DNA from: Bulleidia sp. zg-1006
GTDB lineage: Bacteria; Bacillota_I; Bacilli_A; Erysipelotrichales; Erysipelotrichaceae
Assembly: GCF_016812035.1 (NCBI RefSeq)
Contig: NZ_CP069178.1
Span: 1,302,001-1,366,000 of the forward strand
Direction of reading: 5' to 3'
DNA: 64,000 nucleotides
Shown here: positions 5,083-18,504 of the stretch, in pieces
Position numbering within the stretch: the stretch's first letter is position 1
Layout of the letters: each line of letters starts with the position of its first letter
Notes under the pieces: generated by a model
What the model saw: the letters and a program-made list of their open reading frames with translations, nothing else
Database searches by the model: none
Told to the model about the DNA's origin: nothing
Program-made: the position numbers and the translations under genes

Positions 5083-5350
5083 GAATTCACTATTTCTACA
5101 AAAGCCTCCCTCCAAAACGATGGAAGGCTTTTATAAACTTTTACCTACCTTATTGCCCTTCGGTCAATAAGTATCACTCGTGAAACTTACTAAATTCAAC
5201 AACTCCTTTTCAGACCTGCTTTTTCAGGTTTTTAGTATCAAAATAGTATCATTCAAGAGTTTTTTGTTTTTGCATATCGCTAAAACCCACTATTTTCAGT
5301 GGATTTGCAATAGTAACATATTTGATACTGTTACTCGAACTCGATATATA
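5083..5350. repeat. Diverged copy A of the guaA-flanking sequence
   Basis: This noncoding stretch resembles 16,762-16,975 in the same orientation. Shared in order are the hairpin around AAAAGCCTCC..GGAAGGCTTT, the phrase AAATTCAACAACTCC, the tandem heptamers AGTATCA (5234-5240 and 5245-5251), a segment ATCGCTAAAA, and the tail AACATaTTTGatACT. The last part, read on the minus strand, gives codons IEFE-stop, close to the IEWE-stop that ends guaA. I read it as an old element boundary, with the AGTATCA pairs as possible integrase arm sites. It also holds small hairpins at about 5151-5171 and 5289-5303. No gene is visible from 5,057 to 5,475. Confidence 0.6.
5099..5133. terminator. Bidirectional-looking hairpin terminator
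   Basis: The arms AAAAGCCT.CC and GGaAGGCTTTT enclose a loop of about twelve bases. The A-rich and T-rich flanks allow it to act on either strand; the gene at 4565-5056 starts just left of it, reading away. A near copy sits at 16,776-16,810. Confidence 0.6.
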
Positions 5351-5475
5351 CATTGATTTTGTTTTGTATAAATAACATAAAATCAATGGTTTTATAATTG
5401 GATTTAGCCTTATTATCCAATTTATTTCTGTTTATCTGATTTTTTGCAAGCATATTGCAAGCATGAAACTACAAC

Positions 5476-6110
5476 CTATTCTTTAGCATTCATTTTTACC
5501 TCTGAAATCAAAATACCATTTTCATTATTTTTTAACATTTCAGAAATCAAATTTTTAGAAAAAGTCACAGTACTATTACCTATATCAGCCTCAAACATAT
5601 CCGAATATTTTTCTTGCAACAATTTTGAAAGAATACTACTAATGCCACAGTTCAATAACGCAATTTTAGTTTTATCATCTGTTCCGTATTTTATTTTTAA
5701 ATAAAGTGACTCTTCAATTAGTTCTAAAGAATATAGTACTTCTATATATTTTACTAGTTCATTATCTATAAAATCATATTCTTCTTTCAATCTTACGATA
5801 GCTAAATTAACCTTTTCATATTCATCTTTTTCTGTAATGTCAGTCCAATACTCTTTATGTCCACCTCTGGTTTTATCCCCCCATTTACCAACATAAACAA
5901 TTCTTGATTGCTCTTCTCTAAGCGTATTCCAATATCCAACCACCTCATCTATCATTACTTTCATGGTAAATCCCATTATTCTCCAGTTAATTAGCATTTT
6001 ATAAAAACTTTGTGCTTCATGTTCTCTCAAACGCTTTAAATTATTGTATTCTCCTTTACTATCATTTATTTTAGAAAAAAATAAATAGTCTATTATATTG
6101 AAAACTGTGT
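5476..6110 (-). pseudogene. C-terminal protein fragment without a start codon, possibly helicase tail
   Basis: The frame is open from a TAG near 6124 down to the stop at 5476, about 205 residues, but has no ATG with a ribosome-binding site; only a weak TTG at 6030 is available. The upstream junction lies inside the VirB4 remnant, so the N-terminus appears to have been lost. The C-terminus (LNCGISSILSKLL, then TFSKNLISEMLKN) resembles the helical end of defence-type DEAD/DEAH helicases. If so, it could be the missing C-terminal end of the HamB-like gene at 13,003-14,475, which has the same strand and order. That reading is an inference; an unrelated truncated protein is possible. Confidence 0.45.
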
Positions 6111-6965
6111 CTATAGTCCTCTATCTATTTCGATCTTATTTACTCCAAGTGGTAATACACTTATAAAGCCTTGTTCTTGACTATGATCTAAGCGTTTAAT
6201 CTTACAATTATGCTTGCTTGCAATAGATGAAATTTGAGAAATAGTCGTATCAAGTTTTTGTACTGTCCTTGCAAAATTCATAAAGACAATCGTTACGATA
6301 AACATACGCTCATCCCTTGTCTGGAGATCTTTTAAAAGCATCTTGATATTATCTCCATAGGTAATTAAATCACTTGGCAAGATGTCCATATCATAGCCAC
6401 TTCTAACTGCCTTTTTATTTTCCTCAATTTTCATCTTATCAATATCTGTATTTTTTCTTTTCACCATTTTAATCGCTTCTGTCTGCTCAACTGCCTTGAT
6501 ATGAAAAGAAATATTGATGTTATCATCTATATCTAAAAATTCTGCAAGCATTCTATCCGATAGCTCACTTGCAAGTATTTGAAGATGACTTACTGCTCCA
6601 ATATATTTTCCAAATTTAAAATACTTACTCCGTACAAAATTAAAAGAATCTGGTGTAATCACCGTCTTTGTACTTTCTCTTGGTTTTAAGTCTTTATATG
6701 AAAAAGAAAAGAGCTTATCTGGATTTAAAATATCGTGTAAGACCTTTAGCCTTTCTGTTCCAGTTAAGCCCTCGGCACGAACTCCCATGCTCTTTAGATT
6801 TGACAATATATCTATTTCAAGTCGCTCAAGTTTTGCAGTCGCTTGCTCCAAACTATCCGCTTCTACTCCAAAGGTGATATACTTGGATTTCTTTAAGCCA
6901 TTATTCCCCTTTGCAAGCTGACTTTTTAACATCTCACGAAACTCTAATCGAATATCATCATATCT
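6111..6965 (-). pseudogene. VirB4-like conjugation ATPase, N-terminal fragment
   Basis: About 284 residues match the N-terminal, non-ATPase part of Tn1549/CD1110-type VirB4 proteins. The frame runs from near 6965 (KKERYDDIRLEFREML) through SKYITFGVEADSLEQATAKL to NKIEIDRGL, where a stop at 6111 ends it. The Walker A and B motifs, which would follow in an intact protein of roughly 800 residues, are missing, so it cannot energise DNA or protein transfer. The true N-terminus is also lost: the frame enters from inside the DUF3847-like gene through a run of A/G bases. It marks one broken edge of a decayed type IV secretion module. Confidence 0.75.
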
Positions 6966-7075
6966 CTCTTTTTTCGTTCTTCCTGTTTCTGCTGACTGAT
7001 GAGCTTTTTTCTTTTGTTTTGTAACTGCTTGATTTCTTCTTCTGCCATTAAGATTTTTTCATCTATATTTTTCAT
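6944..7075 (-). CDS. DUF3847-like small coiled-coil protein, truncated
   Basis: Starting at ATG 7075 behind AAAGGACAAAGAAA, this frame gives 43 residues of charged coiled coil (EEEIKQLQNKRKKLI then QEERKKR). That is the N-terminal half of the DUF3847 proteins commonly found next to relaxase genes in Tn1549-like elements. The usual C-terminal half is absent; after KKR the frame runs into VirB4 sequence and stops. An in-frame ATG exists at 7126 but lacks a ribosome-binding site. The function of the family is not known. The truncated product may be translated but is probably non-functional. Confidence 0.5.
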   Translation of the reverse strand: MKNIDEKILMAEEEIKQLQNKRKKLISQQKQEERKKRDMMIFD

Positions 7076-7106
7076 TTTCTTTGTCCTTTCTTCTAAAATC
7101 TGAGTA

Positions 7107-7140
7107 ACAAAAAAACAGTAAACCATTTTTGATTTACTGC
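7107..7140 (-). terminator. Rho-independent terminator
   Basis: The minus-strand hairpin CAGTAAA-loop-TTTACTG (7139-7116) is followed by a run of seven Ts. It would end transcripts coming from the gene at 7,233-7,700. Confidence 0.7.
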
Positions 7141-7232
7141 TTCATAAGTTGCTATATTATTACTTGTATTTAATTGTTTCATTTCGACAAACTGAAAATT
7201 TTCTCTAAATTTCTACAATTTAGCAATATACT

Positions 7233-7700
7233 TCAATTAAATTCCTTCTTGCAACATAACAAACTTTCTATCATAACCAAAAGTAAATTTTCTGGATTTA
7301 TTTCAAATCCATTGACTGTAATCCTATTATTAAAGTATTCAATTGATTTATCGTGATTAAGAAATTTATTGATACAGAGGTACTGTTCAACCTCATCAAG
7401 TACGAAAGCACTCTCCTTCAAAGACAAATCACCAAAACCATTTGCATAATGAACACTTTTCATAATTGGTTTTAGCTTTGTTTTAGGATATTCTTCCTTG
7501 AGCATATTTCTTAATAAAATCACAAGACGATTAAATGTTTGACAATTCAAATCCTCTACGCTAATATTTTTAATAATATTTTCATTGCGTAAATGTTCAA
7601 TTAGTTGAATCAAACATTGTTTTAAATCAGTAACGATATTTTCACTCATTAAAGGCATTTCTCCCTTTCCTCGACTTTCAACTGTGAAATCAAATTCCAC
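7233..7700 (-). CDS. Hypothetical protein, 155 aa
   Basis: I do not recognise this protein. It is mostly helical and acidic, with no signal peptide or membrane segment. The start at 7700 (ATG, MEFDFTVESRGKGEMPL) has only a weak upstream A-rich stretch; an internal ATG (MPLMSEN) preceded by GGAAAGGGAGAA is an attractive alternative about 14 codons in. It lies between the serine recombinase and the VirB4/DUF3847 debris, reads in the same direction, and ends before a clear terminator at 7107-7140. It is therefore probably cargo of the mobile element rather than part of its transfer machinery. Confidence 0.5.
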   Translation of the reverse strand: MEFDFTVESRGKGEMPLMSENIVTDLKQCLIQLIEHLRNENIIKNISVEDLNCQTFNRLVILLRNMLKEEYPKTKLKPIMKSVHYANGFGDLSLKESAFVLDEVEQYLCINKFLNHDKSIEYFNNRITVNGFEINPENLLLVMIESLLCCKKEFN

Positions 7701-7815
7701 ACCAAAATTGACTACCAGTATATCATTTCCTTAAACTTATTTATAACTCTATTTATTTAAGATAGAAATCAAAGCAAATTTATCTTTCTAAATATTTAGT
7801 AATATTATACCATTT

Positions 7816-9486
7816 TTAAGCCATTTTTTCTATATCAGCTTTCTGTGGCACTTGGCAGTTACCTATAAAGTTAAAGTACACATCAACTTGTTGTTTTCTA
7901 TATTTGCCTTTTCTTCCTCCTGTGGCTTCATGGACTACTACTTTTTCTATATACTCATTTATCATTGGTACTGTCAATTCCTCAATATCGGTATACTTTT
8001 CTATCATTTTTAGGAATTTATCGGTGTCAACTTTTCTCTGATGGTAGCTTTCTATTTCATTTTCAAAATACTGTATTTGCTTTTCTAAGTCTTGTTGCTC
8101 CGTATCATAGATATTAAACAATCTGTCAAAGTGTTTTACAGGTATTTTTCCAAGAGCATGGTCTTCGTATAGCTTTGTAATGAGGGTTGTTAGTTCTTCA
8201 TTTCTTGATGACAGTTTTTCTAATTTCTCTTTATCTTCTTGATACTTTTCTTCTCGTTTTTCATCGGATAGCTTGTTCATCACTTTTAGAAATTCTTGCT
8301 TTTCTTCTTTTGCAAAGTCGGTTATTTCTTTGATTGATTTTAAGAGTATTTCATTCACTGTTTTTACTTTGATATAGTGCATACTGCAAGTGCCTTTTCT
8401 GTGTCTGTAATGTTGACATACAAAAGAGTAATCACTATCGTATTTCTTTTCTTTATGTTCTGCCGGCTCTCTGTAGCTTAATTTACCTCCACAATCTGCA
8501 CAGATTAAAAGTCCTGTAAATGGGTGTGAGGTTGTCCCGTACTTTGGACTTCTTCTTACTGTCTTTCTTAGCCTTTGAGCATTATTCCATGTTTCTTCGT
8601 CAATGATAGCTTCATGGGTATTTTGGAAGATAATGAGTTCATCTTCTTTTGCCTTTCTTCGCTTCTTAGTTTTGTAATCAAGGCATATTGTTTTACCAAG
8701 TACGGTATGTCCCATGTATTCTCTTTTTTCTAAGATATATCCTACTGTGGTCGGTGTCCAAAAATACGGGTCTTCTATTCCTCTTTTCTTTGAGCTATGA
8801 TTATTTTCAGGGTAATGTATTTCTGCATAGGCTGACGGTATAAGGACTTTATCTTTGGTTAGTATATCTGCTATCTGTGTTACTCCATATCCCTCTATAA
8901 CAAGCCTATAAATGCGTTTTACGACCTTTGAACTCTCTTTATCGACAAGTAGCTCCTGTTTATTCTTAGGGTTTCTGTAATAGCCGTATGGAACGCTTGG
9001 GGATACTCTTTTACCCTCTTCCATTCTTGCTCTGAAGATAGATTGTATTTTTCTTGAGGTATCTCTCGCATACCATTCGTTCATAATGTTTAGAAATGGG
9101 GTAAAATCGCTTTCTGCTTGTTTTTCACTGTCTATTCCGTTATTGATGGCGATAAACCTTACTCCCTTTTCTTTGAAAAGTATTTCGGTGTAAAAGCCTA
9201 CTTTGAGGTAATCTCTGCCAAACCTACTCATATCTTTTACTATCACAGTAGATACTTTGTTTTCTTCTACTGCTTTTATCATCTTTTGAAATCCCTCTCT
9301 ATCAAAGGTTGTTCCGCTTACTCCGTCATCGGTATAGTGATAGATATTTACAAAGCCGTTTCTTTTCGCATAACTTTCAAGTAGTTGTTTTTGATTGGTG
9401 ATGGAATTGCTTTCTCCTTGCATTTCATCATCTCGACTTAAACGCTCATAAAGGGCTGTCTGTCCTATTCTTTTCGTATTTGACAT
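7816..9486 (-). CDS. Large serine recombinase (TnpX-type, DUF4368)
   Basis: The 556-residue protein has the full layout of large serine integrases. The N-terminal resolvase domain has the nucleophile Ser in ALYERLSRDDE (residue 17) and the arginine-rich VKDMSRFGRDYLKVG. It is followed by a recombinase domain (about 165-300), a zinc ribbon CADCGGKL...CQHYRHRKGTC (about 328-368), a coiled coil, and a C-terminal DUF4368-like segment ending near VYFNFIGNCQ. Such enzymes excise and integrate Tn4451/Tn1549-group elements by strand exchange at a central dinucleotide. ATG 9486 follows GGAGGTAATTCTC. The gene lies immediately downstream of a VirD4 gene that is broken after its Walker A region, as expected for an element that inserted there. 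It looks intact. Confidence 0.92.
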   Translation of the reverse strand: MSNTKRIGQTALYERLSRDDEMQGESNSITNQKQLLESYAKRNGFVNIYHYTDDGVSGTTFDREGFQKMIKAVEENKVSTVIVKDMSRFGRDYLKVGFYTEILFKEKGVRFIAINNGIDSEKQAESDFTPFLNIMNEWYARDTSRKIQSIFRARMEEGKRVSPSVPYGYYRNPKNKQELLVDKESSKVVKRIYRLVIEGYGVTQIADILTKDKVLIPSAYAEIHYPENNHSSKKRGIEDPYFWTPTTVGYILEKREYMGHTVLGKTICLDYKTKKRRKAKEDELIIFQNTHEAIIDEETWNNAQRLRKTVRRSPKYGTTSHPFTGLLICADCGGKLSYREPAEHKEKKYDSDYSFVCQHYRHRKGTCSMHYIKVKTVNEILLKSIKEITDFAKEEKQEFLKVMNKLSDEKREEKYQEDKEKLEKLSSRNEELTTLITKLYEDHALGKIPVKHFDRLFNIYDTEQQDLEKQIQYFENEIESYHQRKVDTDKFLKMIEKYTDIEELTVPMINEYIEKVVVHEATGGRKGKYRKQQVDVYFNFIGNCQVPQKADIEKMA

Positions 9487-9528
9487 GAGAATTACCTCCT
9501 TTCCAAGTTTTTATGATTTTCTCTGTCC

Positions 9529-10098
9529 CTATGAGGTTAATCCTTTAGGATCTGTAACACAATATGAAGAGTGCATTTGCATTAGGTTCGGCTTTACATA
9601 AAATCTCGTTTTTCCTGAACCAGAACCACCTATAACAACTACATTTTTATTTCTTGCATACTTTGGATTTGCCGGTCTTCCATTCATTGTTAATCGCTCA
9701 GTTTGAGTAAGCAAGATATTATTTTGGAACTTTTCATCCACATACGGCTGAATATCTTTTGTCGTTCCCCATCTTGCTGATCCATACTCTTTACCTTGCC
9801 TAAACTTTTTTGCATTTTTACCTTTGGTATAGACAACAAACTTAATTAAAGCAGCTACTCCCACGCCCATTAAAATATCAGTTGGATGAATACTAGGAAT
9901 AAAGCTCATGGTGTTAAGCTCTAATATTCCCTGAAAGATTTTGTCTATCACATCGCCACCAGTATATGCTCTTACATGGTGAGAAAAAATATTACCAACA
10001 TAGAAAAATGCAAGATAGGGAATGTTCTGCTTGAAAAACTTTGCCTTATCTTGCACCTTAAATAAGCCTTTGATGTCCTTTAGTATCTTATCTATCAT
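9529..10098 (-). pseudogene. VirD4/TraG-type coupling protein, N-terminal fragment
   Basis: The visible 189 residues contain membrane segments near the N-terminus (about 24-40 and 76-92), the family phrase GSARWGT, and the Walker A motif GGSGSGKTRFYVKPNLMQ, followed by YCVTDPKG. The frame then stops after three foreign residues. An intact coupling protein has about 600 residues, so the Walker B half is missing. The serine recombinase gene begins 43 bases beyond, which suggests the break was made by its integration. The start ATG 10098 overlaps the upstream DUF3801 gene stop by 4 bases (ATGA). In life it would pump the relaxase-DNA complex into the transfer channel. Confidence 0.8.
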
Positions 10099-10498
10099 AG
10101 GCTCTGCTCCTTTTGTTTATTCTTGACTTTATCTTTAGAAATAGTATTCTTAGCCATCTCTTTAAATTTCTCTATGTTTTTATGAATTGACTCCTTATTT
10201 TTCTCTTTCTTTTCAATATTTGAAAGCACATTTTGAAAAGCTTTATTCATAACCTTTGTATCTTTTGCTTGGAAGAATACAGCATGTGTACCTGTTTCCT
10301 TATCTTTCATCACTGAGAATTTAACACCATGTTTATTCAATTCTTTTTTTAGTTCTTTTAATTCACCATCTTTAACATTGATTTCTTCAAGCTGACCTTT
10401 CTTAACCATATCTTTGAGTTTTACTTCATTTCCCTCCGCCTTGATAAGTTTATCTAAGCCACCATGTTGTTTGGATCTCTGTTGTAACTTCTTTACTT
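10095..10498 (-). pseudogene. DUF3801/PcfB-like protein, 5' end lost to an IS
   Basis: The frame is open up to about 10,498, where transposase sequence of the opposite strand begins, giving about 134 visible residues. The motifs KELNKHGVKFSVMKDKETG and AVFFQAKD are typical of DUF3801 (PcfB) proteins, which precede the coupling-protein gene in Tn1549-like elements. ATG 10409 is a possible restart but lies inside the conserved region. The Lys-rich tail (NKQKEQSL) overlaps the VirD4 start. PcfB-type proteins act as accessory factors for relaxosome-coupling contacts; here the N-terminus and promoter are gone. Confidence 0.65.
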
Positions 10499-10872
10499 CT
10501 GTTGTAGAGTTATATCTATCAAGTGAGATTTCATATCAAGACTTGGCGATTCGAGAAGGTATAAGCAATCCAAGTATGATTACTAACCGGGTTAATCGCT
10601 TTCGCACTGCCGGTCCTGATGCTTTGAAATCTCGCAAGAAAGGTCGAAAGAAAACATTGGATAAATCTAAGATAGATATTAAAGCTCAGGAAGCGGAAGA
10701 AAGAATAGTTGATACAAGTGCAGAACATGTTAAAGAATTAGAAGATGAACTGCTTAAGTTAAGAATTGAGAATGCCTTTTTAAAAGAACTGAGGAGGCTG
10801 CGTTTAGAGGACGAAACAAAAATGAGAGAACGGCACTCGTCATCAACAGTCTCCGAGGAGAATTCAAACTAA
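10499..10872 (+). CDS. IS3-family transposase orfA, 5' truncated
   Basis: The frame reads VVELYLSSEISYQDLA, then SNPSMITNRVNRFR (helix-turn-helix), then a leucine-zipper-like ELEDELLKLRIENAFLKELR as in IS150-group OrfA proteins. The first codons are missing, because the sequence left of 10,499 belongs to the DUF3801 gene on the other strand; an upstream in-frame ATG at 10,414 would only translate antisense DUF3801 sequence. The A5 run at 10,818-10,822 is positioned for -1 slippage into orfB. OrfA normally binds the terminal repeats and regulates transposition. Confidence 0.75.
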
Positions 10873-11714
10873 AAGACCTTCTCTCTTGTACAGGTATGCC
10901 TAAAGCAACATATATGTACCGGCAGAAAAGATTCGATAGGGAAAACCCTGACAAAGAAATCGAGGAGAAGATTCTTGAAATCAGAGAGACTCACAAGGAT
11001 TATGGTTATCGTCGAGTGGTTGGAGAATTAAGAAATCAAGGCTACTGTGTAAACAAAAAGAAAGTACAACGTATAATGCAGAAGCTTGGTTTACAGGTTA
11101 CTTCTTTCACTCGAAAAAGCCGTAAATACAGTTCGTACAAAGGTAAAGTTGGAACAGTTGCTCCTAATCGCATAAGGAGACGATTTAACACGCATATCCC
11201 TCATCAGAAGATTACAACAGATACTACGGAGTTTAAGTATTATGAAATTAATGCTAAAGGTCACATGACAATGTACAAGCTTTATCTGGATCCATTTATG
11301 GATATGTGTAATGGTGAAATTATAAGCTATGGAATTGACAAGCATCCTTCAACAAAAAATGTTATGGAGGCATTGGAACAGGCTATTGCAATAACATCCG
11401 ATTGCAAATATAGAAGAACTTTCCATTCGGATCAAGGCCGGGCTTACCAAATGAAAGCATACTCTCATCGTCTCAAGGAAGAAAGAATCTTCCAAAGCAT
11501 GTCTCGTAAGGGAAACTGTCATGATAACTCTGTTATGGAGAACTTCTTTGGATTACTTAAACAAGAAATCTATTATGGTGTTATTTACTATAGCTATGAT
11601 GAGCTAAAGTCAGAAATCGAACGATACATAAAGTATTACAATGAACAAAGAATTAAAGAAAAACTAGGATGGCTAAGTCCGGTGCAATACAGGCTTAGAC
11701 TCTTGGCTACATAA
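10820..11714 (+). CDS. IS3-family transposase orfB (DDE integrase domain)
   Basis: In the -1 frame relative to orfA, reading is open from the A-run at 10,818-10,822 (NERTALVINSLRGEFKLKD) to the stop at 11,714. The catalytic triad is visible: Asp in ITTDTTEFKYY, Asp in TFHSDQGRAYQ, Glu in VMENFFGLLKQE, followed by the usual YYNEQRIKEKLGWLSP ending. A separate ATG at 10,896 (MPKATYMYRQKRF) would start inside the domain, so the OrfAB fusion by frameshift is the likely active form. The frame has no internal stop, yet the element has lost its left terminus. Confidence 0.88.
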
Positions 11715-11798
11715 AAATAGCGGAGCAGCCATACAAACTGCTACGCTAAAAAAGTCTAACTTTTGGGGGTCACATCATATTCCATCGTCTTATATCTC

Positions 11799-12080
11799 TT
11801 ATATTTCCTTTAATGTATCTTTCGCTACTTCAAGGTATGCTGTAATCCACAGTGCAATTTTAGGTAGTCCATAAGGACTGATTAAGAAAGCTAGTAGTAA
11901 TGCTACCATTCCAGTTACCATATCATTTTGTATAAAGCATGCTACTGCTCCGATAAACACTAGAAAAGATATTATACCTAAAATCATTCCACTAACTTTT
12001 ATAATAAATTTTAGAAAAGCAATTAGTATCGACAAGAGCAATATTATTGGAAATAAGATAATTTTCAATGCCCATCTCAT
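11799..12080 (-). CDS. CD1845-family small membrane protein of conjugative elements
   Basis: The 93-residue protein is very hydrophobic, with segments at about 5-24, 28-48 and 56-72, and ends in a short charged tail (YLEVAKDTLKEI). Length, order of segments and the phrase LLAFLISPYGLPKIALWI match CD1845-type proteins found upstream of pcfB/virD4 in Tn1549-like elements. Its function is unknown; a role in the mating channel is presumed from linkage. ATG 12080 lies 11 bases after the KilA-N gene, behind AGAGAGGTATGTT. The IS3 copy separates it from its former neighbour DUF3801. Confidence 0.7.
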   Translation of the reverse strand: MRWALKIILFPIILLLSILIAFLKFIIKVSGMILGIISFLVFIGAVACFIQNDMVTGMVALLLAFLISPYGLPKIALWITAYLEVAKDTLKEI

Positions 12081-12091
12081 AACATACCTCT

Positions 12092-12943
12092 CTATTTCTT
12101 TGACTTATATTCTAAGCTCTTAATACCTGTATTGTTCAACTTTTCAATTGACATCAGCTGAGTTCTGGCAAGCTTTCTTAGTTCTATCATTCTTTCTTTT
12201 TGTTCCATACCTTTACCGATAAGAACCGCATTATAGCTTTCCATATTTGCAAGTACAAGTAACTCATTAAGACTTGCATAGTCTCTCATATTACCCTTTA
12301 AGTCAGGATTTTCTTCACGCCACTGTTTTGCTCTTTTGTTAAATAAGGCAACATTGAGCATATCGGCTTCACTTGCATACTTATAAGATAACTGTTCTTT
12401 GGTAAGATCCTTTAAGAGATATTCTTTGATTGCATCCGTATGAATTTTATAATTAAGCTTTGAAATCTCCCTATTCAGATTCCATCCCAGTGACATCCTT
12501 GAATTTTCATCTGACTTAAGTCTCTTATAGTCTTGAATAATATACAACTTAAATTCTGGTGAAATCCATGAAGCGAATTCCATTGCTATATCATAATGTG
12601 CATATGTTCCACCATATCTTCCAGACTTTGAAATTATGCCAATAGCATTTGTAGAATCAATCCATTTTTGTGGTGTCATTGTAAATCTATTAAGTCCTGC
12701 CTCATTTCTAAACGTGTCGAATTGCACACGGTTAAAATTTTCATTGTTCAGAACTTCCCATAGTCCGATAAATTCCAACGTATTTCTGTTTCTCATCCAG
12801 TTCTGAATAACAAACCTCGGATCATCAGTATTTTTATACTTAGCTATATCTGTTAGACTTATATAGTCGTTTTTAAAGTCTTCAGTATAAATTTGAATAG
12901 CAAAACCTTTTGCTTCAATCGTGTCTTTTTTTGCCTTAGACAT
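12092..12943 (-). CDS. KilA-N domain DNA-binding protein
   Basis: This 283-residue protein has a KilA-N domain at about residues 20-135: ISLTDIAKYKN, WMRNRNTLEFIGLWE, and YGGTYAHYDIAMEFASWISPEFKLYI. The C-terminal half is helical. KilA-N proteins bind DNA and are common in phages and conjugative elements, often as regulators; the target is unknown. ATG 12943 has the strong ribosome-binding site AAAGGAGGAACTCAC. Such genes often sit near the pcfB-virD4 cluster in Tn1549-like elements, so it is probably element-borne. The frame is intact. Confidence 0.85.
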   Translation of the reverse strand: MSKAKKDTIEAKGFAIQIYTEDFKNDYISLTDIAKYKNTDDPRFVIQNWMRNRNTLEFIGLWEVLNNENFNRVQFDTFRNEAGLNRFTMTPQKWIDSTNAIGIISKSGRYGGTYAHYDIAMEFASWISPEFKLYIIQDYKRLKSDENSRMSLGWNLNREISKLNYKIHTDAIKEYLLKDLTKEQLSYKYASEADMLNVALFNKRAKQWREENPDLKGNMRDYASLNELLVLANMESYNAVLIGKGMEQKERMIELRKLARTQLMSIEKLNNTGIKSLEYKSKK

Positions 12944-13002
12944 GTGAGTTCCTCCTTTATGCTGATGTACTGTTTACAACATTTATTTTCGTAATAACTG
13001 CT

Positions 13003-14475
13003 CTAAACAGCACACCAACTATTCATTTTTTTGATTTTAAACTTTGGTAGAAGCTCTAAAACCCTTGTATTTACTTGACTATTTGCCTGTGTCATTATTA
13101 TGACACGAAACCCTCTACAAGGATCTAATATAAACATCTTTGTTGCAGGAATATTTACTCCTTCAAGTAATGTAGAATTAGCAATAAGCATTTTTATTTC
13201 TGGTATATCAACATATAAGTCCTCTATAAAATACCTTATTGGCTCTGGTATTGAACCATGATGATAAATAACCCCTTTTTCAATATAATCAGCTAATTTA
13301 TAATCCTCATGTACGTATTCCCTCAAATCACTAGCAGCTTTATTAAGTCTAAGTATCTGTCTTTCAGGGAGTTTAGAAAATAGTTTAAATGCAAAATTTT
13401 CAAGCTTCTTAGGACTGTTTAAATATATTATATTTTTGTTATCACAATTTGTAATAACAACATCTGCGTCGTCTCCTAATTCATTGACCTGTAAATCAAT
13501 CAGCTTGTCCTTTATCGTAGAATATTGATCTAATAAAACTTTCTTATTGTTCTCTAAATCGTAAAAATAAAACATTTCTGACTTGACATTTTCTACAACA
13601 CTATACCATTCAGCAACATTAGAAATATGTTTAATTTTAAAACTTTCTTTAGATTTTAAAAATGGGGTCAAATATTTACACACAAGATTATCATTTCTTT
13701 TTTTACAAATAATAATAACTGAAGCTAAAATCACACCACGTGTTCTCTCATTTGAAAATTCATCTAATATATTATGCGCTTCATCAATAACTAATAAATC
13801 AAATTTCAAATTGGGGTTGTTCTGTAGCAATCTCAACAGTCTTTCTTGAGTTAACACAGCAATTATTTCATAATCTTTATCACTATACATTTCTGGATAT
13901 GTTATTATTTTCCTATATCCAAATTTATTTATAATCCTTTTCTTTGTTTGCGCCAAAAGAGATTTTGTAGGAGAAATGATACATATTTTTTTAAATTTAG
14001 TGTGGTCAATAAATGATAATATCAATTCCGTTTTCCCATACGATGTTGGAGCTACAATAATCTGCGATTTTAATTTTGATTCTGTAGCTTCCTTAAATAA
14101 TTCAAACTGTCCTATTGTTTGATACGAATTATTCCATTTAAATTCATCACTCTCTATACTATTTATTTCAGTATAGATATTCCCATATCTCTCTGAATAA
14201 TTTAGATTGTTTTCTATAAATTTTGATATGGGAATAAGCCCTTTATTCAAACTTAATTCGTATAGTGGTTTATAATCATCCGTTATTTTGCTATACAATA
14301 AAAATAATCTGTATCCTAATCTTTGTATATTTTTATTATCCAATCCAGTCAAAAAAATCCCTATAGATAATATTTTTTCTAGTTCTTCATCAGATAACTC
14401 TATACCTATCTGTAACTTTTTATATAGTTCTGGAAATTCAGTGTCATAAAGCTTTCTCAATGTTAATTTATCCAC
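13003..14475 (-). CDS. HamB-like SF2 helicase, C-terminally truncated
   Basis: The 490-residue frame is the N-terminal part of a superfamily 2 helicase. It has a Q residue in YQTIGQFELF (about 119-128), Walker A APTSYGKTELI (142-152), motif Ia SPTKSLLAQ, DEAH box VIDEAHN (229-235), IYHHGSIPEPIR (403-414) and motif V ANSTLLEGVNIP (432-443). Motif VI (arginine finger) and the long C-terminal region are absent; about 35 unrelated-looking residues end the frame. Full HamB proteins are near 900 residues or more. It lies 10 bases downstream of a HamA-like nuclease gene, the order seen in Hachiman anti-phage systems. A perfect inverted repeat (GTGTCAT..ATGACAC, 13,089-13,106) lies at the likely breakpoint. 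Confidence 0.68.
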   Translation of the reverse strand: MDKLTLRKLYDTEFPELYKKLQIGIELSDEELEKILSIGIFLTGLDNKNIQRLGYRLFLLYSKITDDYKPLYELSLNKGLIPISKFIENNLNYSERYGNIYTEINSIESDEFKWNNSYQTIGQFELFKEATESKLKSQIIVAPTSYGKTELILSFIDHTKFKKICIISPTKSLLAQTKKRIINKFGYRKIITYPEMYSDKDYEIIAVLTQERLLRLLQNNPNLKFDLLVIDEAHNILDEFSNERTRGVILASVIIICKKRNDNLVCKYLTPFLKSKESFKIKHISNVAEWYSVVENVKSEMFYFYDLENNKKVLLDQYSTIKDKLIDLQVNELGDDADVVITNCDNKNIIYLNSPKKLENFAFKLFSKLPERQILRLNKAASDLREYVHEDYKLADYIEKGVIYHHGSIPEPIRYFIEDLYVDIPEIKMLIANSTLLEGVNIPATKMFILDPCRGFRVIIMTQANSQVNTRVLELLPKFKIKKMNSWCAV

Positions 14476-14485
14476 TTCAAACCTC

Positions 14486-15253
14486 CTATACTAATGTCAC
14501 TAAAAAATCTATTATCGCTTGATATGTTTCTTTTTGTATTGCAATTAATTTCAATTTTGAAAATTTTTTAGAGCTTAATATTGATTTATGCAGTTTTCTT
14601 AGTTCTATTGAATCTATTGTAGAATCAAATATGCAAAACACAGTACCACCTAAAATAACATTTTTATCGTTGCTTAAACATGAGTTGCTATTTTTATTAA
14701 GTATATTAACTATAGTATTTTTTTCACTAGTATCATCCAATGCACTCCTAACGCTATTCACTGCATTTAACCATAATTGTGAATTGTGCATATTCAAGCG
14801 TGTATCTAAATCTCTTTTAGCAGTATTGATTCTTTCACATACCTTTTCAGTAGAAGTTTTTAGTTTACCTAATTCTCCCGCTTTTGATTCTATAATCCAT
14901 AAATCTTTATTAGGATCAACAGCAATAATATCAAAACCCTTTTTTACATTTCTTTCTTCTAAATTAAAAAATGGTGAAACTATTTTAATATCAGTAAATT
15001 CTCTAATCAACACATTTAGCAATAACTCACCTATCACTCCTACTTTTCTATTTATATTACTTGGAATTCTATGATTTACCAATTCTTTTACAGTTTCATC
15101 AAATGAATGATAATTGAGTCCTGAAACAAGAGCATATTCTCCATGACAGATTTCAATCAATTGTTCTTTTATTTTATCCTTTAATTCATCACTTAGACTA
15201 TGAATTTCTAATATAATACTTTCTCCAATTTTTCTTTCAACTACATCATTCAT
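14486..15253 (-). CDS. HamA-like (DUF1837) nuclease of a Hachiman-type defence system
   Basis: The protein has 255 residues and a visible PD-(D/E)xK core: Glu76 in VIGELLLN, Asp108 in KKGFDIIAVD, and Glu122-Ser-Lys124 in LWIIESKAGE, in the spacing typical of this fold. Size, fold and the helicase gene immediately downstream fit HamA of Hachiman (or the related AbpA of AbpAB). In that system the helicase senses aberrant DNA and licenses the nuclease. The start ATG 15253 has a weak upstream GGAAAAATATA. The reading frame is intact, unlike the helicase partner. Other two-gene nuclease-helicase defence pairs are the alternative; a profile search would settle it. Confidence 0.62.
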   Translation of the reverse strand: MNDVVERKIGESIILEIHSLSDELKDKIKEQLIEICHGEYALVSGLNYHSFDETVKELVNHRIPSNINRKVGVIGELLLNVLIREFTDIKIVSPFFNLEERNVKKGFDIIAVDPNKDLWIIESKAGELGKLKTSTEKVCERINTAKRDLDTRLNMHNSQLWLNAVNSVRSALDDTSEKNTIVNILNKNSNSCLSNDKNVILGGTVFCIFDSTIDSIELRKLHKSILSSKKFSKLKLIAIQKETYQAIIDFLVTLV

Positions 15254-15469: not shown

Positions 15470-16645
15470 TTATCTCACCACAATCCAATTTCCATCTCGC
15501 TTTGATCCTATTCTTTCTATCATCTTCTTTTCTTGCAAAGATTTAAACGTTCTTTCTATAGTCCTTTTTGTTACACCAATTATTTCTGCAAGCTCAACTG
15601 ATGTTACACTTGGATTTTCTATCAACAGTTCTATCACTTTCTTCTCAGTCTTGTTTAAAGCGACATCCAAACCGACATTCAAACCGACATTTTTATTTTC
15701 TATTTGGTCAATTACTTCTTTTTCAAAAGGAATCGTGCATCTAATATAGTTGCTTTCAATCTGAAAAACATCTCTCCCATATTTTTCTACAATCGTTGGA
15801 ATGCCATGCCCCGTATGTTCAGTAAGCCCCATATTTAAAAATATTCTCATCAATGTTGCATTTCTGGGTTTACTTATTCCGTCAAAGAATTGTTCCTTTG
15901 TCATTCTGCTAGGAAGTCCACCATGTGAAAGTATCTCCAGTCTGTTATGAAACATTGAAATCAGAGGCTCTGTAATTGTCCAGTCGTTATGAACTAAAGC
16001 GTTTAAAATTGCCTCATTAACACAATCAAAATCAAATAAATATGTGTCTTTTCTTGGTCTAACTGTCGTATCAGAAATACATATATTTTCAGCTTGCAAT
16101 CTGTTTTTTATTTTTCCATATGTAGTTAAAATACATCCATAACCATAATCACTTCGTTCAGAAATTGAAGCTTTATTTTCTCCTTGAAATTTCACAAAAA
16201 TGAACGGAATATTATTTTTATCCGATAGTAATTCTGCCAGCAAATTATATTCTCCCGCTTCATTCCTTAAATTCAAATTTGTTTCAAAGGATTTATCTTC
16301 TAAATGGTAATTTTTTTCAGAATAATATATTTTAAGTTCTCTAAATGATAGATTGGATGAATTCGCTCTTTTTTTTAGCATGTATTCATTATCTATAAAC
16401 TTTTTCTCATATCTAATTTTTATCTGTTCCGGTGTCATTTCTTTGCAGGTTGTTCCTATTCTCATTGTGCATCCAGCAGAAGAAAACCCATATTTCTTTT
16501 GACAATAAATATGATTACGCCCTTTATTTATATGAATCACTATAAGAGTTTTTCCTTCATCAAATTTAAGTTCCGAGCTGATTTCATCATCAAGAACAGT
16601 TTCAAGATAATCAATTGTGCTGTTAAATGACTTAATAATATTCAT
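15470..16645 (-). CDS. RecG-related/AlbA_2-type regulator with HATPase_c_4 domain
   Basis: The protein of 391 residues belongs to the family often called putative transcriptional regulator or ATP-dependent helicase-related. It has an AlbA_2/Schlafen-like N-terminal part (CTMRIGTTCKEMTPEQI), a HATPase_c_4 region (CVNEAILNALVHNDW, then GGLPSRMTKEQF and GHGIPTIVEKYG), and a C-terminal winged HTH (SVELAEIIGVTKRTIERTF). ATG 16645 was chosen because AAAGGAGGAAAACC precedes it; an upstream in-frame extension to 16723 has no such site. The first strand of AlbA_2 seems short, so the N-terminus may be trimmed. The role is unknown; such genes are frequent cargo of genomic islands. Confidence 0.75.
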   Translation of the reverse strand: MNIIKSFNSTIDYLETVLDDEISSELKFDEGKTLIVIHINKGRNHIYCQKKYGFSSAGCTMRIGTTCKEMTPEQIKIRYEKKFIDNEYMLKKRANSSNLSFRELKIYYSEKNYHLEDKSFETNLNLRNEAGEYNLLAELLSDKNNIPFIFVKFQGENKASISERSDYGYGCILTTYGKIKNRLQAENICISDTTVRPRKDTYLFDFDCVNEAILNALVHNDWTITEPLISMFHNRLEILSHGGLPSRMTKEQFFDGISKPRNATLMRIFLNMGLTEHTGHGIPTIVEKYGRDVFQIESNYIRCTIPFEKEVIDQIENKNVGLNVGLDVALNKTEKKVIELLIENPSVTSVELAEIIGVTKRTIERTFKSLQEKKMIERIGSKRDGNWIVVR

Positions 16646-16761: not shown

Positions 16762-16965
16762 ATCACTATTTTCCACAAAAGCCTCCCACCAAAAAGATGG
16801 AAGGCTTTCTAAACAATTCACCTAAATTCAACAACTCCCTTTTGAACCTACTCTTGGGACTTTTTAGTATCAAAATAGTATCACTAAGACAGTTTTTACG
16901 CTTTTAAATCGCTAAAATCCTGCTTTTTCAACGGTTCTATAGCAGAAACATGTTTGTTACTATCA
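16762..16965. repeat. Copy B of the repeated boundary sequence, adjoining guaA
   Basis: This resembles 5,083-5,345 over its whole length. It contains the same GCCTCC hairpin, AAATTCAACAACTCC, two AGTATCA heptamers (16,866-16,872 and 16,877-16,883, start-to-start 11 bases), ATCGCTAAAA, and AACATGTTTGTTACTATCACTCCCA running into the guaA stop codon. The region 16,646-16,962 has no gene. Position against guaA makes it a candidate attachment region with integrase arm sites. Confidence 0.65.
16776..16810. terminator. Hairpin terminator, near copy of 5,099-5,133
   Basis: Arms AAAAGCCTCC and GGAAGGCTTT enclose a loop CACCAAAAAGAT-like segment. It could end guaA readthrough on the minus strand. Confidence 0.5.
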
Positions 16966-16985
16966 CTCCCACTCTATTGTCCCCG
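16945..16985. other. Candidate attachment site at the guaA 3' end
   Basis: The last guaA codons and stop (ATAGAGTGGGAGTGA on the minus strand) are a known target for integrative elements. Foreign-looking DNA begins directly downstream. A degenerate counterpart (ATCGAGTTCGAGTAA) is at about 5,330-5,350. The core cannot be fixed without an empty site. Confidence 0.5.
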
Positions 16986-18504
16986 GAGGTTTAGATGTAA
17001 TATCTAAGGCCACTCGATTTACATGCTTCACTTCGTTCACAATACGTGTTGAAATACGATCAAGAACATCATAAGGAATACGCGCCCAATCCGCTGTCAT
17101 ACCATCAATCGAAGTTACAGCGCGAATAACAACCGTATAATCATACGTCCTCTGATCCCCCATGACACCAACCGATCGAATATTTGGCAAACAAGTAAAA
17201 TACTGCCAAATATCTCTTTGTAGACCAGCCTTTTGAATCTCTTCCCGAAGAATCAAATCCGAATCACGCACAATTTCCAACTTCTCTTCACTAATTTCGC
17301 CCAGCACACGAATTCCCAAGCCGGGTCCTGGAAACGGTTGTCTCCACACCATTTCCTCCGGTAAACCAAGTTCTGTTCCCAAAGCACGCACCTCATCCTT
17401 GAATAATTTATTCAAGGGTTCAATCAATTGGAAATTCAAATCTTCTGGCAAACCACCCACATTATGATGTGACTTAATCGTTTGTGCCGTCTTTGTGCCT
17501 GACTCAATCACATCCGTATACAAAGTCCCTTGTGCCAACCAATGAATATCCACACCCTTTAGTAACTTTTGTACCTCATCTTGAAATGTATACACAAACT
17601 CATTGCCAATAATCTTACGCTTTTGTTCTGGATCCGATACACCTTTTAACTTATTCATGAAACGCTTAGAAGCATCCACCTTTGTCAGATGAATACTCAT
17701 ATTCTTTACGAAGGTTTCCATGACTGAGTCCGCCTCTTTCTTACGTAATAAGCCATGATCAATAAACATACAATAAAGCTGATCACCGATCGCCTTATGC
17801 AATAAAGCTGCCACAACCGAAGAATCCACACCACCAGACAAAGCCAATAACACCTTATCTTTGCCAACTTTAGCACGAATTTCATCTATCTGTTGTACAA
17901 TAAAGTTCTTCATCGACCAATTCGCTTTCACTTCACATACACCAAACACAAAGTTTTTCAGTATATCCAAGCCATATTCACTATGACGAACTTCAGGATG
18001 AAATTGAAGTGTATAAATCATTCTTTCTTCATTCATTGAAGCAACTGATGGGCAAGTGGTACTTTGTCCCATACCCACAAAACCATCAGCCAATTTAACT
18101 ACCTGGTCACCATGGCTCATCCAAACTGTTTGTTTTTCAGGCAAACCCTTTAATAAAGCATTATTTGTATCAAAGATAACCTCTGTTCGACCATACTCCT
18201 TTTTATCAGAACCTTTTACTTCCCCACCTAACATTTGGTGTATCATCTGCATTCCATAACAAATTCCCAAAATAGGAAGACCAGATGTAAAAATAGCTGG
18301 ATCACACTTCAAAGAACCATCTTCATACACCGAATTAGGACCACCCGAGAAAATAATCCCTTTCACATCTTCCATTGCTAAAATATCGCTTAATCGCATG
18401 TCTCCTGGGTGCAATTCTGAATACACCCCAAATTCACGAACACGACGGGAAATCAACTGATTGTACTGACTGCCAAAATCCAAAACAATAATCTTATCTG
18501 CCAT
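16963..18504 (-). CDS. guaA: GMP synthase (glutamine-hydrolysing)
   Basis: The 513-residue protein has the complete two-domain layout. The class I glutamine amidotransferase part has ILGICYGMQ (catalytic Cys) and [14 protein letters not shown] (His-Glu); the ATP-pyrophosphatase part has the P-loop [11 protein letters not shown] and [19 protein letters not shown] near the C-terminal dimerisation domain, ending in PPGTIEWE. It converts XMP to GMP with glutamine and ATP in the cytosol. ATG 18504 follows AAAGAGGAAAATAGG. The 3' end is intact although mobile DNA starts right behind it, as expected when integration rebuilds the terminal codons. It is the boundary gene between core chromosome and accessory region. 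Confidence 0.98.

Follow-up and report, generated by a model that had tools for sequence, protein, structure and literature searches.

A Hachiman operon broken within hamB in Bulleidia sp. zg-1006, almost certainly by a Tn1549-family conjugative element

Introduction

Hachiman defence relies on HamA, a protein with a described D-E(x)K motif, and the helicase HamB, which drives the activation of HamA through ATP hydrolysis on DNA ends (PMC12278908). HamA activation needs HamB, and loss of HamB or mutation of its helicase abolishes defence (PMC12278908). In the E. coli HamAB system, HamA is bound in part through an N-terminal helical bundle; HamB is soluble by itself, and HamA is not (PMC12278908). 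Published cells in which HamB was deleted or its contact with HamA was broken lost defence and were described as viable. Among integrative and conjugative elements (ICEs), those of streptococci with a serine-integrase triplet insert in hsdM, traG and mutT and generate repeats of 2-8 bp, with secondary sites also occurring (PMC4701971).

Here we analyze a Hachiman locus in a 64,000-nucleotide stretch of the Bulleidia sp. zg-1006 genome, hereafter the window. An earlier note, made from the sequence alone, had read this locus as a HamA nuclease paired with a short HamB helicase.

Results

The locus comprises two minus-strand open reading frames. The hamA gene (14486..15253, minus strand) is intact, begins with ATG, and encodes a 255-aa PD-(D/E)xK nuclease with E76, D108, and E122-S-K124; the helicase frame (13003-14475, minus strand) begins with GTG and encodes 490 aa, with 10 bases separating the two by their coordinates in the window. 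A profile search with the 255-aa protein identified it as HamA through Pfam PF08878 (88.4 bits, the threshold being 25 bits; E 8.2e-25), and its translation contains the catalytic D-E(x)K residues D108, E122, and K124. PADLOC HamA models, including HamA1, matched the same protein weakly (E 7e-06), and a solved-structure search with HamA returned no match. The 490-aa product was identified as HamB by PADLOC model PDLC00176 (E 7.5e-58; profile positions 36-481 of 845), the match ending at about 481 of 845, i.e., through motif V and short of motif VI. A solved-structure search with a HamB relative returned DNA polymerase theta-type helicase domains, AbpB, and HamB. These results bear out much of the earlier note: both minus-strand frames and their 10-base gap, the four HamA residues (E76, D108, E122, and K124), and the Hachiman identity, the last through PADLOC for HamB and, for HamA, through the PF08878 score of 88.4 bits when 14,486-15,253 was checked against HamA/DUF1837 profiles. 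Its description of a 490-residue helicase with motifs up to V and no motif VI was correct in placing the truncation before motif VI and incorrect in counting the whole frame as helicase, as only codons 1-455 are HamB. The locus in the window is a broken Hachiman operon in which a complete HamB in one frame is absent.

In searches with HamA, close relatives came from Eggerthia catenaformis (Erysipelotrichales; G283/L031, L053) and from Granulicatella elegans (Lactobacillales; L052). HamB is a single-frame protein of 815 aa in both, which excludes a naturally short HamB. The DNA of the two relatives aligns with the window at 90-93% identity, beginning at 15679 or 15151; both alignments are interrupted at 13112 and pick up again at 6115/6114. 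HamA of G. elegans is full-length (255 aa) and 94% identical, and the retained part of hamB differs from that of G. elegans with a dN of 0.031 and a dS of 0.131.

The genomic surroundings of the operon are also partly shared. In the window, guaA, named by sequence reading, adjoins Hachiman at 16963-18504, as it does in G. elegans (L052 3420-4973), where the shared arrangement was noted over L052 3420-6001. Repeats resembling the 3' end of guaA flank the operon in the window (16822-16977 and 5190-5345; 73%), with another such repeat in Eggerthia (L031 12286-12464). Hachiman linked to guaA is thus common to Erysipelotrichales and Lactobacillales, and it probably belongs to a guaA-linked genomic island that moves between the two orders. 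In E. catenaformis, the early part of hamA is frameshifted (L031 about 8990-9015), and Hachiman may also be impaired.

The alignments resolve hamB into two pieces. The 5' fragment (13113..14475, minus strand) covers codons 1-455, i.e., the N-terminal helices, RecA1, and RecA2 through motif V, and is 87% identical to residues 1-455 of Eggerthia HamB at the amino acid level. The 3' fragment (5476..6115, minus strand) covers about codons 603-815 and lies 7 kb away. Using tblastn, Eggerthia HamB residues 1-455 were placed at 14475-13111 and residues 599-815 at 6129-5479, the latter with 90% amino acid identity; an independent profile search placed positions 675-836 of PDLC00176 at window 5518-6027. 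On this side, the DNA is 94.8% identical to G. elegans over 5332-6115. The 444 bp of hamB that should lie between the pieces (L052 8143-8586), including motif VI, are absent from the locus, and a genome-wide search for them, run without a positive control, gave an empty result.

The insertion point is a GG dinucleotide (13111..13112, minus strand) common to the glycine codon of DPCRG in hamB and the end of a mobile element. At this junction the window reads CCTTGTAGAGG followed by GTTTCGTGTC, versus CCTTGTAGAGG followed by AAATAG in G. elegans; a comparable junction within rlmD, described below, reads TTGTATTGTGG followed by GTTTCGTGTC. The break falls in FILDPCRG, where the relatives continue as DPCRGN(N/S)YLSPSSFKNL(V/I)GRVCRFG, placing motif VI (GRVCRFG) within about a dozen codons past the break. 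Both hamB pieces are still open, and codons changed uniquely in the window number only 10 of 455 in the 5' piece and 6 of 217 in the 3' piece. The break looks recent because neither piece contains stops and window-unique changes are few.

The last approximately 36 residues of the 490-aa frame (GFRVIIMTQANSQVNTRVLELLPKFKIKKMNSWCAV; 13003..13110, minus strand) are not helicase; they are translated from the mobile-element end, which is open and fused in frame to hamB. When the 490-aa protein was searched against its own genome, a second match was found that covers its last 42 residues only (G000:C1:1234363-1234488). At this site the tail is joined to the start of rlmD in a 339-aa frame, where VVDLYC is followed by GFRVIIMIQANSSVKSKVLKLLPKLKTEETDSLCVA, and, like its counterpart in the window, it precedes a DUF5699 gene. 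The 3' half of rlmD is 52 kb off, beside three serine recombinases (L034 7091-7525, 7596-12434). The recurrence of the same tail on split rlmD identifies it as the end of a mobile element, and its DNA is 98.8% identical in Streptococcus agalactiae CP138365.1 over 163 bases. As the tail matches a mobile element, a simple frameshift or premature stop is rejected as the cause of the short hamB. Pairwise differences among tails fall 382/468/300 by codon position; without an excess at third positions, the tail is rejected as a selected protein segment and resembles non-coding sequence that is translated accidentally. The rlmD gene is split by a conjugative element of roughly 52 kb (G000:C1 about 1182526-1234466; L034, L033), likely a sister of the one in hamB. 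A near-identical in-frame tail (GFRVIIM...) is also present on split genes in L035, L047, L054, L055, and others.

These findings bear directly on the minimal nuclease-helicase variant proposed in the earlier note, i.e., a natural Hachiman in which a 490-aa HamB works with HamA in the absence of motif VI. Both frames are open, hamA is intact, the operon spacing is kept, and the retained hamB has a low dN relative to dS (0.031 versus 0.131, G. elegans), all in favour of such a system. However, orthologues with 90-93% DNA identity are intact at 815 aa, the tail comes from a mobile-element end found on unrelated genes, and the 3' part of hamB persists 7 kb away. The low dN/dS would in turn reflect a history shared before a recent insertion, in keeping with the few window-unique changes, and defence in E. 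coli requires helicase activity (PMC12278908). We consider a natural minimal system very improbable. There is likewise very little chance that the truncated HamB binds HamA in a pair that keeps some function, such as an idly held nuclease or a changed sensor, in which case the element's insertion would have created a working short Hachiman.

The DNA between the hamB pieces is the remnant of a conjugative element. Compared with the element in S. agalactiae CP138365.1, positions 6118-13110 match in three blocks that are 87-94% identical. Next to the tail is a KilA-N domain gene (12092..12943, minus strand; Pfam PF04383, E 3.3e-21) that has a counterpart at this position of the S. agalactiae element, followed by a gene for a small membrane protein of the CD1845 family/DUF5699 (11799..12080, minus strand; Pfam PF18956, E 5.4e-21), a family with additional copies in the Bulleidia genome and also present in S. 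agalactiae. An IS3-family insertion (10499..11776, plus strand; NCBIfam transpos_IS3, E 2.6e-73 for 10896-11714) comes next, and homology to the S. agalactiae element ends at 10498 and restarts at 11777, around this copy. Beyond it are a fragment of a PcfB/DUF3801 gene (10095..10409, minus strand; Pfam PF12687, E 2.1e-24; homologues in L033 and L054) and the 5' fragment only of a virD4-type coupling protein gene (9529..10098, minus strand; Pfam PF02534, E 9.6e-06), of which a full homologue of 600 aa is present in L033. Over 9541-10498, the DNA is 92% identical to the S. agalactiae element. A nested segment (6975-9540), which sits inside the virD4 fragment with its junction following DPKG, is unmatched in that element and carries the gene of a large serine recombinase of DUF4368 type (7816..9486, minus strand; Pfam Resolvase, Recombinase, Zn_ribbon_recom, and DUF4368). 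The remnant closes with an internal fragment of a virB4-type ATPase gene (6118..6974, minus strand) that is 94% identical in DNA to the S. agalactiae element and matches only TraC_F_IV in Pfam (E 0.0009). The order of conjugation genes (KilA-N, CD1845, PcfB, VirD4, VirB4) is therefore common to both elements, several of them being fragments here. The left end, with its GG core, is clear; the right end is lost at hamB, and a two-ended direct-repeat signature is lacking. The remnant contains no serine-integrase triplet; one is found in the sister element, which has the same left end, beside the rlmD 3' half.

We searched for the left end of the element in Erysipelotrichales, more widely, and in plasmids, reading a target gene only where a long frame crosses the junction. 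The split targets are N6-DNA methyltransferases or type IIG restriction-methylases (L041, L049, L054, L055), with methyltransferase targets in L056 and L058 assigned by reading, together with rlmD and hamB; the N6-methyltransferase genes among them are of type I or IIG. All target genes are cut at the glycine of a D-x-x-x-G motif I, sharing the GG. Two partial matches to the element end (L040, L045) follow methyltransferase-like starts recognized by eye (ILDLAC, LECAC) that have no Pfam match, and these targets are likely methyltransferases. Eight further matches (L036, L037, L038, L039, L042, L059, L060, L075), where no split gene was identified, were left out as target evidence. The DPCRG of HamB resembles methyltransferase motif I, and hamB was presumably hit because of the likeness of DPCRG to D(P/L)xxG, the usual target of these elements. 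hamB is a further gene open to disruption by these conjugative elements, whose targets include many restriction-modification genes. About 3 kb from the broken 3' end of hamB, the window also contains a type IIG-like N6-methyltransferase gene (613-2478) with an intact DPCCG, a kind of gene that in other genomes is split by elements of this family.

Several of the targets belong to host defence, namely to restriction-modification of type I and IIG, and the insertion could have been favoured for disabling a defence that acted against the element or burdened the host. However, a methyltransferase-motif target alone accounts for the bias towards defence genes, the housekeeping gene rlmD is also split, and a single hamB case provides no test of selection. 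Such an advantage seems improbable.

Discussion

Almost certainly, an ICE of the Tn1549 family interrupted the hamB gene of a canonical Hachiman operon; the family name is given on the basis of the gene set and PMC4701971, not a tree. The element meets hamB at the GG of the FILDPCRG glycine codon, and its end contributes about 36 in-frame codons. What is left is the 7-kb remnant, with its parts of conjugation genes, nested serine recombinase, and IS3-family copy, and after it the 3' part of hamB. The integrase probably belonged to the serine-recombinase triplets, like that of the rlmD sister element, an assignment that follows from the shared left end and not from a surviving integrase. A later deletion would then have taken the far end of the element, in which case hamB would not be restorable by excision.

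For related elements, reversibility has been proposed (PMC4701971), and an element that excises to restore hamB on need, as proposed for those in rumA, hsdM, and comK, would make the break a switch. Excision could not restore hamB here because the locus lacks the 444 bp that encode motif VI; it also lacks the element's far end, and the surviving recombinase belongs to the nested segment. A reversible switch is contradicted in this genome, where we give it next to no chance, and could hold in other strains if their hamB contained the whole element.

Under the preferred reading of an interrupted operon, a HamB without motif VI and the C-terminal domains would be unable to drive the ATP-dependent activation of HamA. 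The earlier note had warned that HamA freed from HamB would be toxic unless it were inactive or still bound by the short helicase. This is unsupported, as published cells with HamB deleted or its HamA contact broken lack defence but are described as viable, and because HamA activation needs HamB, a cell that has lost HamB should contain an idle HamA and not an unleashed one. HamA would be either unstable or idle rather than a runaway nuclease. It is possible, though we hold it only tentatively, that the HamB fragment keeps HamA as an inert complex through its N-terminal helices, which would be a by-product of the break and not an evolved function. In E. coli, the N-terminal helical bundle has a part in HamA binding and only HamB is soluble alone (PMC12278908), and the corresponding N-terminal part is kept in the window fragment; against this, RecA2 is incomplete and the fragment may not fold. 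An inert complex would be compatible with the interrupted operon, in which Hachiman is most likely inactive, and recently so.

The case also has a practical side. Gene calls alone could yield a false report of a minimal Hachiman, because the element end adds a tail in frame with a helicase that is broken immediately ahead of motif VI. This tail (G-x-x-V-I-I-M...) can be used to flag false short gene variants arising from this element family.

Comparison with known systems

The locus resembles Hachiman of the E. coli ECOR31 type (PADLOC HamA1/HamB1) in its gene order, in a PF08878 HamA with D-ExK residues, and in its HamB sequence up to motif V, and its intact relatives encode proteins of 255 and 815 aa. 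It differs in that hamB is broken by an insertion, with motif VI onward outside the reading frame.

The inserted element is similar to the serine-triplet ICEs of the Tn1549 family known from streptococci (hsdM/traG/mutT; PMC4701971), sharing KilA-N, CD1845, PcfB, VirD4, and VirB4, a very short GG core, and insertion within protein genes, mostly methyltransferases. In contrast to these, its target in the window is the helicase gene hamB, which we read as a secondary site, and it has decayed to 7 kb with loss of the integrase end. The element of S. agalactiae CP138365.1 (pR31-snf2-M) is alike in its left end (98.8% over 163 bases) and in three blocks of 87-94% identity; unlike the window remnant, it adjoins a type IIG restriction-methylase gene, with the junction at DPAVG, and keeps the conjugation genes that the remnant has lost.
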